Below, in pieces: positions 6,586 to 24,230 of a stretch of DNA of 48,227 nucleotides. Within the stretch, counting starts at the first letter, position 1, and each line of letters starts with the position of its first letter. The position numbers were made by a program, and so were the translations under genes. The notes beneath the pieces are model-generated. The model saw only the letters and a program-made list of their open reading frames with translations. It was not told the DNA's origin and made no database searches. Origin of the DNA: an uncultured Mediterraneibacter sp. (GTDB taxonomy: Bacteria; Bacillota; Clostridia; Lachnospirales; Lachnospiraceae); NCBI GenBank assembly GCA_944377745.1, contig CALWFV010000025.1, forward strand, positions 1-48,227. Reading direction: 5' to 3'.

Positions 6586-6677
6586 CTGATGTGACTGCCG
6601 AATACCTCCCAGGTGCCACAAAAACGAAAGAATCTGCAGCATACCCGGTCATATTCCCGTAACCCCAATCTGAAAGT

Positions 6678-6874
6678 GAATATTCTGGCTCAGGGATCAA
6701 CACGTCTGTCCCGCCTTCCCACAGGCTCTCTCGCCCGCAGTGGCTTCTGCTCTGCAGAATGGAACGCCGCTCCTCCAATACAGCAACGGGTATTGCGCAG
6801 GATTCTCACCTGACTTCCTCTGATCTCTCAGATGTATGCATGGGCGAGTACAGTTAGCACCATACTCAATACTC
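6678..6874 (-). ncRNA. Cobalamin riboswitch aptamer
   Basis: The minus strand shows the class features in order: closing stem strand GAGTATT (6874-6868) pairing with AATATTC (6684-6678), the B12-box-like block GGAAGTCAGGTGAGAATCC, then AAGCCACTGCGG, GTGGGAAGGCGG and the late GAGCCAGAATATTC element. These match the cobalamin (AdoCbl) riboswitch consensus. The aptamer starts inside the cobO stop codon, so it is intercistronic: cobO lies upstream of it and cbiM-N-Q-O-K plus the phosphatase downstream. Ligand binding is expected to shut off cobalt uptake and chelation. Confidence 0.9.
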
Positions 6875-8372: not shown

Positions 8373-8395
8373 GTAATATAAGTAAATCAAAAAGA

Positions 8396-8591
8396 TTCCA
8401 GCTGTGCGGTTAGTTGATTCAAGAATCATCCAAACCACTTATCCATTCGCAAAATCGTGCTAACGCACTCCTGCGTCTGCTGACGCATCCGCTTTTTGCT
8501 CATTGATAAGTGGGTTGCTGATCCGATAATCCATTGGCATTGCAATAAATTGCATGCAATGGATTATCGGATCGCAACCGCACAGTTGGAG
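8396..8591 (-). repeat. Structured intergenic element E1 (long hairpin plus tandem-GA stem-loop)
   Basis: Nested inverted repeats fill the gap between the ATPase and permease genes. Outer arms are at 8396-8411 and 8576-8591 (16 pairs, two G-T). Inside, 8520-8536 pairs perfectly with 8557-8573 (17 bp). Next to it 8435-8443 pairs with 8505-8513, enclosing a stem of 8449-8454 with 8494-8499, which encloses two small hairpins at 8457-8468 and 8472-8487. On the minus strand the main stem carries AATGAG opposite CGAAT, giving tandem G-A/A-G pairs. The same order and motif recur at 16966-17202 and 22605-22766. It carries no coding frame of note. Confidence 0.75.
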
Positions 8592-8608
8592 AAGATTGGA
8601 GACTTCCT

Positions 8609-16949: not shown

Positions 16950-16965
16950 TTCATTTATGATGCCA

Positions 16966-17202
16966 GGGTCAAAAGGTCTAAGCCCACATGAGCTTGCTCA
17001 TAAGTGGGTGAAAGACCTTGGGACCCGCCCCGATATGAGCATAAAAGTGGGATGTATATCCCACGATATGCGAATATTGGGGCGGATTGTGGGGCGCTGA
17101 ACGTCCGGTGGACGTTCGCTTAGCGCCGACCGAAGCGGAAGCGAAGACCGCGGAGCACGGAGCAATCCGCGGGCATCATAGTTGGGGGCTTTTGCCCCCA
17201 AC
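16966..17202 (+). repeat. Structured intergenic element E3, the largest copy
   Basis: A chain of hairpins fills the gap between glnK and the next permease. First is a long hairpin (16966-16979 with 17013-17026) capped by the perfect stem 16983-16993 / 16996-17008. Second is the stem 17025-17036 with 17074-17085, holding ATGAG opposite CGAAT (tandem G-A pairs) and ending in GTGGGAT/ATCCCAC (17047-17064). Third is 17093-17098 with 17122-17127 around GAACGTCC/GGACGTTC. Fourth is CCGCGGA/TCCGCGG (17148-17172). Last is GTTGGGGGC-TTTT-GCCCCCAAC (17181-17202). An alternative pairing joins GCGGATTG (17082-17089) with CAATCCGC (17163-17170). No protein frame is supported. Confidence 0.8.
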
Positions 17203-17216
17203 ATCATATTATTTAT

Positions 17217-22080: not shown

Positions 22081-22118
22081 ATCCTCTTCCTCCTGGTTTC
22101 TGTCTACTTCCTTTTCCT

Positions 22119-22577
22119 CTATAGTCTGAGTCCCTTGATATCCTTGATCCTGGAAAGTATCGTATTACAGGTACATTCCACCACTCCGGGAAGGCGGTCC
22201 ACCGTATCATAAATCAGCTTCTCCATCTCCTCGTTGGATGATGCGACCGCATGGACATGGAGCCTGCTCTTTCCCGTGACACGGTAGATCTGGGTAATCG
22301 TATCATTTTTCTCCAGGATCTCCGCCACGTCCATCAGAGTATCCGGCTTTGTCTCGATCTCAAAATAACAGGACACTGCACCGCTGATCCGCTGCGGGTT
22401 AATGATCGTCGTATATTCCTCTATGATTCCTTTCTGCTCCAGAGCCTGGACCCGCATCTTCACTGCCACCCGGGAGATACCGACCTGCTGTCCGATCTCG
22501 GAATACGACATCCTCGCATTCCGGATCAGAAGTGCCACGATCTTCTGGTCCAGTTCGTCAAGTCCGTCCAAAAACAT
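22119..22577 (-). CDS. Lrp/AsnC-family transcriptional regulator
   Basis: Regulator of 152 residues. An N-terminal helix-turn-helix (LDELDQKIVALLIRNARMSY...GISRVAVKMRVQALEQKGII, about 6-53) is followed by a RAM-type effector domain (about 68-145, ending in CTCNTILSRIKDIKGLRL). AGGAGG lies nine bases before the ATG. It is upstream of cbiG in the same direction, so it may regulate cobalamin synthesis or simply be co-transcribed. Effector unknown. Confidence 0.88.
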   Translation of the reverse strand: MFLDGLDELDQKIVALLIRNARMSYSEIGQQVGISRVAVKMRVQALEQKGIIEEYTTIINPQRISGAVSCYFEIETKPDTLMDVAEILEKNDTITQIYRVTGKSRLHVHAVASSNEEMEKLIYDTVDRLPGVVECTCNTILSRIKDIKGLRL

Positions 22578-22604
22578 TATCCAGCGCCTCCTTTTTTCTG
22601 TTTT

Positions 22605-22766
22605 CCTGTTGACGTTCAGTCCGCGCTATTCGTAAAACCGCACTTCGTGCTTACCGCGGCTTCCGCCGCTGTTTTACTCATCAACAGGCGCTCAGCTTGT
22701 CAGGGATGGGAAAGGCTGATCCTTATGCAAGCATAAATCAGCCTTTCCCATCCCTGACGGCTGAAC
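22605..22766 (-). repeat. Structured intergenic element E2 in the Lrp-cbiG leader
   Basis: On the minus strand: a perfect 22-bp inverted repeat (22737-22758 with 22699-22720) capped by TTATGC-AA-GCATAA, then a stem 22681-22688 with 22605-22612. Inside the latter, GTAAAAC (22632-22638) pairs with GTTTTAC (22671-22677) around two GC hairpins (22640-22650 and 22656-22669). The joint between the stems is ATGAG opposite CGAAT, giving the tandem G-A motif seen in E1 and E3. GTTCAG (22614-22619) can also pair with CTGAAC (22761-22766). The element would form most of the 5' leader of the Lrp gene. Confidence 0.75.
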
Positions 22767-22777
22767 TGTTATCTGAC

Positions 22778-22828
22778 ATTATACTTTGTTTTCTTCCGGT
22801 TGACAATCGTTCTCTCTGAGTTTATCAT
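22778..22828. promoter_or_regulatory. Divergent promoters with overlapping -35 boxes
   Basis: Plus strand: TTGACA (22800-22805), 17-bp spacer, TATCAT (22823-22828), driving the MATE gene. Minus strand: TTGTCA (22801-22806), 17-bp spacer, TATAAT (22778-22783), driving Lrp-cbiG. The two -35 boxes share five bases, so only one polymerase can engage at a time. Confidence 0.8.
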
Positions 22829-22868
22829 ATATTACGAATGTTAAGTTAATAATTACTAAAAGAAAGAT

Positions 22869-24230
22869 ATGATAAAAATGGAAAATGAACTGACCCGCGG
22901 ACCTGTCATGAAGACCCTGCTTCGTTTTGCTGTCCCGATGATCCTGGGTGATCTTCTTCAGCAGTGCTACAATATCGCGGATACCCTGATCGTAGGGCGA
23001 TTCCTGGGCGCGGATGCGCTGGCGGCGGTAGGATCCGCCTTCTCCCTGATGACCTTCCTGACTTCCATTATCCTGGGGCTCGCCATGGGGAGCGGCACTG
23101 TCTTCTCCATCCGCTTCGGTCAGAAGGATGATCAGGGGCTGAAAGAAGGGATCCTTGCTTCTTTCACACTCCTTGGGATTGTGACAGTAGTGCTCAATAT
23201 CCTGATCTTCGCCGGAATCGACTGGATCATCTGGTTTCTCCGCACGCCCGGCGAACTGGTGGAACTGATGAAAGAATATCTGATCGTGATCTTTACAGGA
23301 CTGATCGGCATTTTCCTCTATAACTTCTTCGCCTCACTCCTTCGCTCCCTGGGGAATTCTGTGGTACCGCTGATCTTCCTCGCGGTCTCCGCCGTACTCA
23401 ACATCATCCTTGACCTCTGGTTTGTCGCCGGACTTGGACGGGGAGTTGCCGGCGCCGCTGAGGCAACGGTCATCTCCCAGTACGTATCCGGGATCGGCAT
23501 CACCATCTATAGCCGGATCCGGTTTCCCGGGCTGCTCCGGAAAGATAAAGATGTGCCGCTGCGATTCAGCCGGATCCGGGAGATCACAAGCTTTTCCGGA
23601 CTGACCTGCATGCAGCAGTCCATCATGAACCTGGGGATCCTTGCGGTACAGGGACTGGTCAACAGCTTCGGCACAACGATCATGGCTGCTTTCGCCGCCG
23701 CAGTAAAGATTGATGCTTTCGCCTATCTTCCCGTACAGGATTTCGGCAACGCGTTTTCCATCTTCATTGCCCAGAACTACGGTGCGGGAAAGAATGACCG
23801 GATCCGGAAAGGCATCCGCTGTGCCGTGGCTGCTTCTGTCCTGTTCAGCCTGGCTGTCTCTTTCCTTGTCTTTGTCTTCGCCGGTCCGCTGATGGGGCTG
23901 TTCATTGACTCCGGAGAGGCATCCGTCATCGCGGAAGGAACCCGTTATCTGCGCATTGAAGGCTCATTTTACGCCCTCATCGGGATCCTGTTCCTGCTCT
24001 ACGGCCTCTATCGTGCCATCGGCAATCCGGGAATGTCCGTCATTCTGACCGTCGTCTCTCTCGGCACCCGGGTCGCTCTGGCGTATGCACTCTCTGCGGT
24101 TCCCGCATTCGGTGTCGTCGGAATCTGGTGGTCCGTTCCCATCGGCTGGTTCCTTGCGGATGCCCTGGGAGCCGGATACTATTTTATCCTATACAGGAAG
24201 CGCTCTGTCTGCCCTTCCGGGACAGATTGA
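22869..24230 (+). CDS. MATE family efflux transporter
   Basis: Twelve-helix cation-coupled exporter of 453 residues. It has the MATE start LLRFAVPMILGDLLQQCYNIADTLIVGRFLGADALAAVG, repeated in the second half from LTCMQQSIMNLG, and the conserved QNYGAGKNDRIRKG. Typical substrates are drugs and cationic metabolites. The start may be 22869 or the second ATG at 22878; only a weak AGAAAG ribosome site is visible. Its 3' end overlaps the convergent GH18 gene by 47 bases. Confidence 0.92.
   Translation: MIKMENELTRGPVMKTLLRFAVPMILGDLLQQCYNIADTLIVGRFLGADALAAVGSAFSLMTFLTSIILGLAMGSGTVFSIRFGQKDDQGLKEGILASFTLLGIVTVVLNILIFAGIDWIIWFLRTPGELVELMKEYLIVIFTGLIGIFLYNFFASLLRSLGNSVVPLIFLAVSAVLNIILDLWFVAGLGRGVAGAAEATVISQYVSGIGITIYSRIRFPGLLRKDKDVPLRFSRIREITSFSGLTCMQQSIMNLGILAVQGLVNSFGTTIMAAFAAAVKIDAFAYLPVQDFGNAFSIFIAQNYGAGKNDRIRKGIRCAVAASVLFSLAVSFLVFVFAGPLMGLFIDSGEASVIAEGTRYLRIEGSFYALIGILFLLYGLYRAIGNPGMSVILTVVSLGTRVALAYALSAVPAFGVVGIWWSVPIGWFLADALGAGYYFILYRKRSVCPSGTD

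Follow-up and report, generated by a model that had tools for sequence, protein, structure and literature searches.

Three hairpin elements of a Mediterraneibacter genome, probably MITEs that differ in their ends and are related in their folded cores

We examined three hairpin elements, E1, E2 and E3, in a 48,227-nt stretch of DNA from an uncultured Mediterraneibacter sp. (the window, meaning that whole stretch), and conclude, with a probability of roughly 0.8, that they are MITEs, small non-autonomous transposable elements, moved in trans by different DDE transposases and with a related folded core between their ends. Across their families we observed terminal repeats, target duplications, covariation, relatedness of the core, ends in common with elements that encode a transposase, and relatives in which copies are missing. 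E3 was already known as RF01699 (Clostridiales-1); added here are the E1 and E2 families, which lie outside Rfam 15, and a rereading of Clostridiales-1, for which mobility is the best reading. Numbers with L, G, and C are our own handles for loci, genomes, and contigs.

The three elements and their core

A sequence-only reading of the window had described three AUGAG/CGAAU hairpins as a new family of related, folded, covarying elements with the same order of hairpins. We built a covariance model, CM R1, from 25 E2-type hairpins, the window copy among them and no E1 or E3 sequence included; the hairpins were gathered by BLAST of window positions 22100 to 23300 within the genus, an end pattern, and a hairpin pattern run over the loci, and were then aligned. 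CM R1 recovered all three hairpins where they had been placed (Table 1). The element limits originally given were too short: the whole elements measure 249 bp (E3), 192 bp (E1), and about 169 bp (E2), contain no transposase gene, and have many dispersed copies. The order of hairpins is as described, except that E2 has no third one. Two sub-hairpins within hairpin 2 are common to E1 and E2. The hairpin 1 cap GCUUGC is frequent in Clostridiales-1 and E2-type elements, and hairpin 1 of E1 is without it. The window also contains a cobalamin riboswitch (6658 to 6870, minus strand, 60.5 bits).

Table 1. Positions in the window of the three elements and their parts
Feature	Position	Strand	Evidence
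E1, CCAACTGTGCGG-type ends, 192 bp	8398..8589	-	RF01699 sub-threshold, 33.3 bits; empty site in G348; ends
E1 hairpin 2, AUGAG/CGAAU core	8435..8513	-	CM R1 (E2-built), 28.4 bits, E 2e-5
E1 target duplication, left copy AAAAGATT	8390..8397	.	Both sides identical in G305 orthologue (L184)
E1 target duplication, right copy AGAAGATT, one base changed	8590..8597	.	Window sequence
E3, whole Clostridiales-1 element with its tail hairpin past the Rfam model	16958..17206	+	RF01699, 117.5 bits at 16958-17178; ends TGATG..CATCA from other copies
E3 hairpin 2, AUGAG/CGAAU core	17027..17083	+	CM R1 (E2-built), 12.2 bits, E 0.82; RF01699 alignment of relatives
Extra module in E3 hairpin 3, limits approximate, also separate elsewhere in the genome	17093..17150	+	Query 128-185 matches at C48, C1, C42; absent in L009-L012
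E2, degenerate GTAACAGTTCAGCC-type ends, limits approximate	22608..22776	-	E2-type repeats in many genomes of the genus (query 515-672); intact copies elsewhere
E2 hairpin 2, AUGAG/CGAAU core, 5-nt bulge, two sub-hairpins	22623..22691	-	CM R1, E 6e-23 (48 kb searched); hairpin alignment

The claim of novelty has to be divided. E3 scores over the curated RF01699 cut-off of 48 bits and is a member of that existing family by score, whereas E1 stays under the cut-off and the window E2 was not matched, and both are new as far as Rfam 15 goes. Clostridiales-1 (Weinberg et al., 2010, PMC2864571) is catalogued as an sRNA with no assigned function. RF01699 has 13 matches at E of 0.001 or below in the source genome, 7 of them over the cut-off and E1 among the remainder. 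Across the family, sampled at one genome per genus, matches were found in 161 of 299 genomes (over the cut-off in 130), and in none of 14 control genomes; at most nine candidates were scored per genome, which makes the copy numbers lower bounds. The elements are thus multi-copy, and copies found elsewhere by CM R1 and BLAST show that they are not confined to the three loci of the window. Contigs with a Clostridiales-1 end, in the best 80 of at least 119, come largely from Lachnospiraceae and other Clostridia, plus one Coriobacteriales assembly. In one high-copy genome (G027), several contigs start inside a Clostridiales-1 element, near base 60, as if repeats had broken the assembly; at another locus (L050) the third hairpin and flanking bases appear to be tandemly repeated downstream of the Clostridiales-1 match.

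Relatedness was assessed from both directions. On 25 other element-bearing loci CM R1 gave 12 matches, every one on the second hairpin: six at the six E1 loci, and six at the 19 Clostridiales-1 loci. Because the other 13 of those 19 went unmatched, E3 is the weakest link by this model; judged by such scores, the relatedness of E1 and E2 is secure, and that of E3 weaker. In the reverse direction, the RF01699 model gives E1 copies scores of 31.7 to 39 bits, and it scores two E2-type copies at 36.6 and 28.6 bits; all of these are below the cut-off, and relatedness is supported from this side too. Together with the pairing counts below, these scores bear out the description of the three elements as related, folded, and covarying.

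To characterize the core, we read 75 Clostridiales-1 elements picked by Rfam score and left out one (L035) as misplaced. The remaining 74 carry AUGAG/CGAAU (63), AUGAA/UGAAU (9), or AUGAG/UGAAU (2); therefore, the tandem G-A pairs are constant and the adjoining pair covaries. Of 44 profile-picked copies, 33 show the first or the second of these forms and the other 11 have a different or misaligned core, and in 21 E2-type copies found by BLAST the 5′ strand is AUGAG in 20 and AUGCG in one, with CGAAU opposite in all 21. Over the E2-type hairpin, 98.4% of cells are paired, with the reservation that the search pattern itself required pairing in two stems; in the two sub-hairpins, where the pattern required none, 99.2 and 98.0% are paired. 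The hairpin has 22 double-changed cells versus 4.5 in shuffles, which meets the objection that covariation might be lacking, and "further pair types" are not above shuffles (8 versus 8.7). In Clostridiales-1, pairing is almost complete, and by several types of pair, in the proximal and middle stems of H2 and in the stem of H3, and the distal parts of H1 and H2 vary too much in length for good scoring on that alignment. In a kink-turn, a 3-nt bulge directly adjoins tandem G-A pairs. Neither hairpin type has this arrangement: the E3-type has no bulge, and the E2-type has a one-sided bulge of 5 nt that adjoins the core, with an A-U and a U-A pair between it and the G-A pairs.

Ends, target duplications, and candidate transposases

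Aligned Clostridiales-1 copies start with TGATG and finish with CATCA after a tail hairpin that lies outside the Rfam model, and their outer bases form an inverted repeat. Among the 75 elements read, 45 were testable, in that both ends could be set by a fixed rule (left end shifted out by 3 bases where TGA precedes). Exact direct repeats lie immediately outside the ends in 26 of the 45 (18 of 5 bp and 8 of 6 bp); 2,000 flank shuffles gave 1.7 exact duplications on average and 7 at most. All 18 repeats of 5 bp have T as first and A as last base. The window copy of E3 is without an exact duplication (ATTTA/TATTA), which we count against the reading. In three genomes (G305, G312, and G348) the E3 flanks are 20 to 22 bases apart, as opposed to about 260, and the element is absent; these junctions are too diverged for a base-exact comparison, which also counts against it. 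A literature search, mostly outside subscription papers, returned no description of Clostridiales-1 as mobile. Minimal elements of 36 to 40 bp, with little beyond the two terminal repeats, were seen at two places (L066:1493-1532 and G328:C36:9916-9951).

A scan with the Clostridiales-1 end TGATGTTGGGGTCAAAAGG found at least 119 loci. At one among the matches listed (L543), this end flanks both sides of a 1.8-kb stretch encoding a 551-aa protein with Pfam domains DUF772 and DDE_Tnp_1_6, both over their cut-offs. We term it "IS1182-type" because IS1182, its best NCBIfam match, scores 128 bits against a cut-off of 270. The contig starts 4 bases before the element, and these are compatible with a 5-bp duplication, TAATT. 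Homologues at 1e-80 occur at nine places in 8 of the 299 genomes, and six of these eight genomes have RF01699, which, against 161 of 299 overall, counts against the pairing. Paired ends were found at five of the nine places: exact duplications flank three (TCAATA in L554, TGACA in L555, and TATAA in L556), and the other two (L557 and L562) have the ends and no matching duplication. These two, and the four places where no end pair was found, are likewise counted against it.

Other candidates were rejected. None of 30 IstB loci had Clostridiales-1 ends at 2 or fewer mismatches, which removes IS21 as a partner. One end pair (L064) proved to be two solo elements around a 129-aa ORF that is DtxR-like by eye; by eye, no transposase lies between the ends in L481, L518, and L525, nor in L067, where the ends belong to two separate elements. 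The end-pair search over the loci in the study gave no additional insertion sequence. Scans of viral contigs for the ends gave 3 matches with an 18-mer, 34 with a 15-mer, and at least 120 with a 14-mer.

For E2, the query from its region matched 54 of 58 congeneric genomes, a figure that includes the flanking genes; matches to the element itself (query 515 to 672) make up much of that list. Intact copies span GTAACAGTTCAGCC to GGCTGAACTGTTAC. An exact 8-bp duplication flanks 4 of 27 E2-type rows, two of which are one place, versus a mean of 0.16 and a maximum of 2 in 5,000 shuffles; the window copy, with its degenerate ends, is not among the four, which counts against the reading. IS66 elements generally have ends starting GTAA and an 8-bp duplication. 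One of 30 IS66 loci (L226) has E2-type ends, around a 485-aa IS66-type transposase (PF03050 at 75.5 bits, over the cut-off; NCBIfam IS66 at 145.6 bits, under the cut-off of 180), with CGAAAAAA on both sides of the element. That just 1 of 30 does so is counted against the assignment, as is the absence of PF03050 from 9 of the 12 genomes picked for E2-type copies; it was found in the other 3, and in 20 of the 58 congeneric genomes. Since PF03050 occurs in 3 of 12 such hosts and the L226 transposase has no close relatives in the 299 family genomes (best, 34% identity), E2-type elements in many hosts look stranded or served by another enzyme. A further E2-type element (L226:1-147), with ends like those of this insertion sequence, lies immediately next to it. 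Another locus (L203), where two GTAACAGTTCAGCC-type ends stand 1.7 kb apart, was rejected as two solo elements; the 466-aa ORF between the ends is not transposase-like by eye.

For E1, AAAAGATT flanks the element on both sides in G305 (L184), and G348 (L185) has a single AAAAGATT and no E1, that is, an empty site. Among other copies, one (L019) has a duplication matching at 7 of 8 bases, and three (L018, L021, and L186) have no clear match. No partner insertion sequence with E1 ends was found among the loci examined, which counts against the reading.

The insertion sequences themselves are without the core, and the core is not derived from them. CM R1 found no core at the IS1182-type loci L543, L554 to L557, and L562, its sole match in L226 was the separate neighboring E2-type element, and RF01699 had no match in L226, L543, or L554 to L557. 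Loose core-like strings, unscored, occur in some IS1182-type stretches.

The hairpin 3 module of E3 (Table 1) has a similar counterpart in hairpin 3 of L015, from the same genome, and of L071 and L073, from another genus. Certain Clostridiales-1 elements, from two genera, thus contain within hairpin 3 an extra hairpin module of the form GGCGCT..AGCGCC followed by a GACCGAAGCGG-like sequence. A further repeat family with the same module outside Clostridiales-1 lies mid-locus in L060 to L063 (C48, C1, C42, and C40 of the source genome), and L060, L061, and L063 have no convincing Rfam match. Because the module occurs both within and apart from E3-type elements, such elements exchange parts, and part exchange is one way for the core to change ends.

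Alternative readings

Rfam gives RF01699 the type "Gene; sRNA", the covariation is strong, and Weinberg et al. (PMC2864571) regard the family as likely RNA and not cis-regulatory, all of which would suit small RNA genes that, with their relatives, became multi-copy by ordinary duplication. We regard this as very improbable, given terminal repeats with 5- to 6-bp duplications, ends in common with IS1182-type elements, flanks that are conserved where the element has been lost, and its placement in both orientations relative to genes (++ in 24, -- in 18, -+ in 18, +- in 10, and 4 not called; the bias is not significant). Nor do we give much credence to the idea that the three are mutually unrelated MITE families, whose cores match between E3 and E1/E2 by convergence or chance. 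The E value of 0.82 for E3 and the 13 unmatched Clostridiales-1 loci are what such a coincidence would leave behind, yet CM R1 gave no fourth match in the 48-kb window at E up to 10 and missed none of the E1 loci, RF01699 in turn scores both E1 and E2-type copies, and the hairpin order is alike.

The core might act as a DNA hairpin, as a cruciform or as a single strand at replication, that is recognized in transposition. In the profile-picked set, departures from Watson-Crick pairing are about equally G-U (23) and A-C (20), which, like the lack of a significant orientation bias, leans toward DNA and away from a role as RNA. The Rfam-picked set leans the other way, with 59 G-U versus 19 A-C, though 23 of the 59 fall at one position and the picking favors G-U. 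The involvement of two unrelated transposase types, whose insertion sequences are free of the core, argues further against the DNA hairpin; the core is therefore unlikely to be the recognition site of one transposase, and a host DNA-binding factor is what this account could still invoke. On balance we consider it unlikely, and tentatively favor, at somewhat less than even odds, contact of the core with a host factor at the RNA level.

Proposed role and comparison with known systems

Taken together, the features expected of MITEs are largely present. E1, E2, and E3 are short, dispersed, and free of transposase genes; terminal inverted repeats with duplications of a fixed type are seen at the family level, the window copies of E3 and E2 being without an exact one; and an autonomous partner with the same ends was found for Clostridiales-1 (IS1182-type) and E2 (IS66-type), not for E1. 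We propose that an IS1182-type enzyme would cut and join the E3/Clostridiales-1 ends TGATG..GGGTCAAA in trans with a 5- to 6-bp duplication, that an IS66-type enzyme would do so at the GTAACAGTTCAGCC ends of E2-type elements with an 8-bp duplication, and that a third, putative enzyme would act on the CCAACTGTGCGG ends of E1, again with an 8-bp duplication. Between all three types of ends lies the related core, 5′-AUGAR opposite 5′-YGAAU, of an origin outside the insertion sequences. Once transcribed, the core may meet a host RNA-handling factor, which would make insertions tolerable to the host or help the copies to spread; its persistence across the families suggests such help in spread or tolerance. 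The assignment of these enzymes and the action of the core upon transcription are both predictions from sequence. As a bolder and rather doubtful possibility, the folded RNA core could be a portable host-interacting module that was mounted separately on at least three unrelated transposon ends (IS1182-type, IS66-type, and a third). If true, a selfish structured RNA would change vehicles in bacteria, comparable to eukaryotic SINE RNAs on borrowed machinery.

If an "sRNA" present in 161 of 299 sampled genomes is reread as a family of transposons, for which there is a candidate partner enzyme, the annotation of its matches changes. Two families related to it, neither of them in Rfam, have a related core within other transposon ends. 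This allows one to ask directly how a conserved fold serves a mobile element that encodes no protein, and to do so in gut bacteria of a major group.

Compared with Clostridiales-1 RNAs as catalogued, E3 is a member by score with a like three-hairpin fold, and E1 and some E2-type copies score below the cut-off; the difference is that we read the family as a mobile element, with a tail hairpin and then terminal repeats that lie past the Rfam model. Clostridiales-1 ends and their 5- to 6-bp duplications are as in IS1182-type elements, and thus as in IS1182-type MITEs, whereas the interior is a covarying fold not derived from the insertion sequence. E2-type elements likewise resemble IS66-family MITEs in ends that start GTAA and in the 8-bp duplication, as in the L226 element, and differ in a folded core whose origin is not the insertion sequence. 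The suggestion that the elements are recognized by a transposase holds in part: the common ends indicate DDE transposases of the IS1182 and IS66 types, which duplicate their targets, and not a TnpA(REP)-like hairpin enzyme. REP elements are moved by TnpA(REP)/RAYT, a Y1 transposase partner, and leave no target duplication, and judged by the duplications that are present, the E1, E2, and E3 families are not of this kind. With REP/RAYT, BOX, ERIC, and Correia elements they have in common that they are short, non-coding, intergenic, multi-copy, and folded; none of those is known to have one covarying core across the ends of different transposase families.
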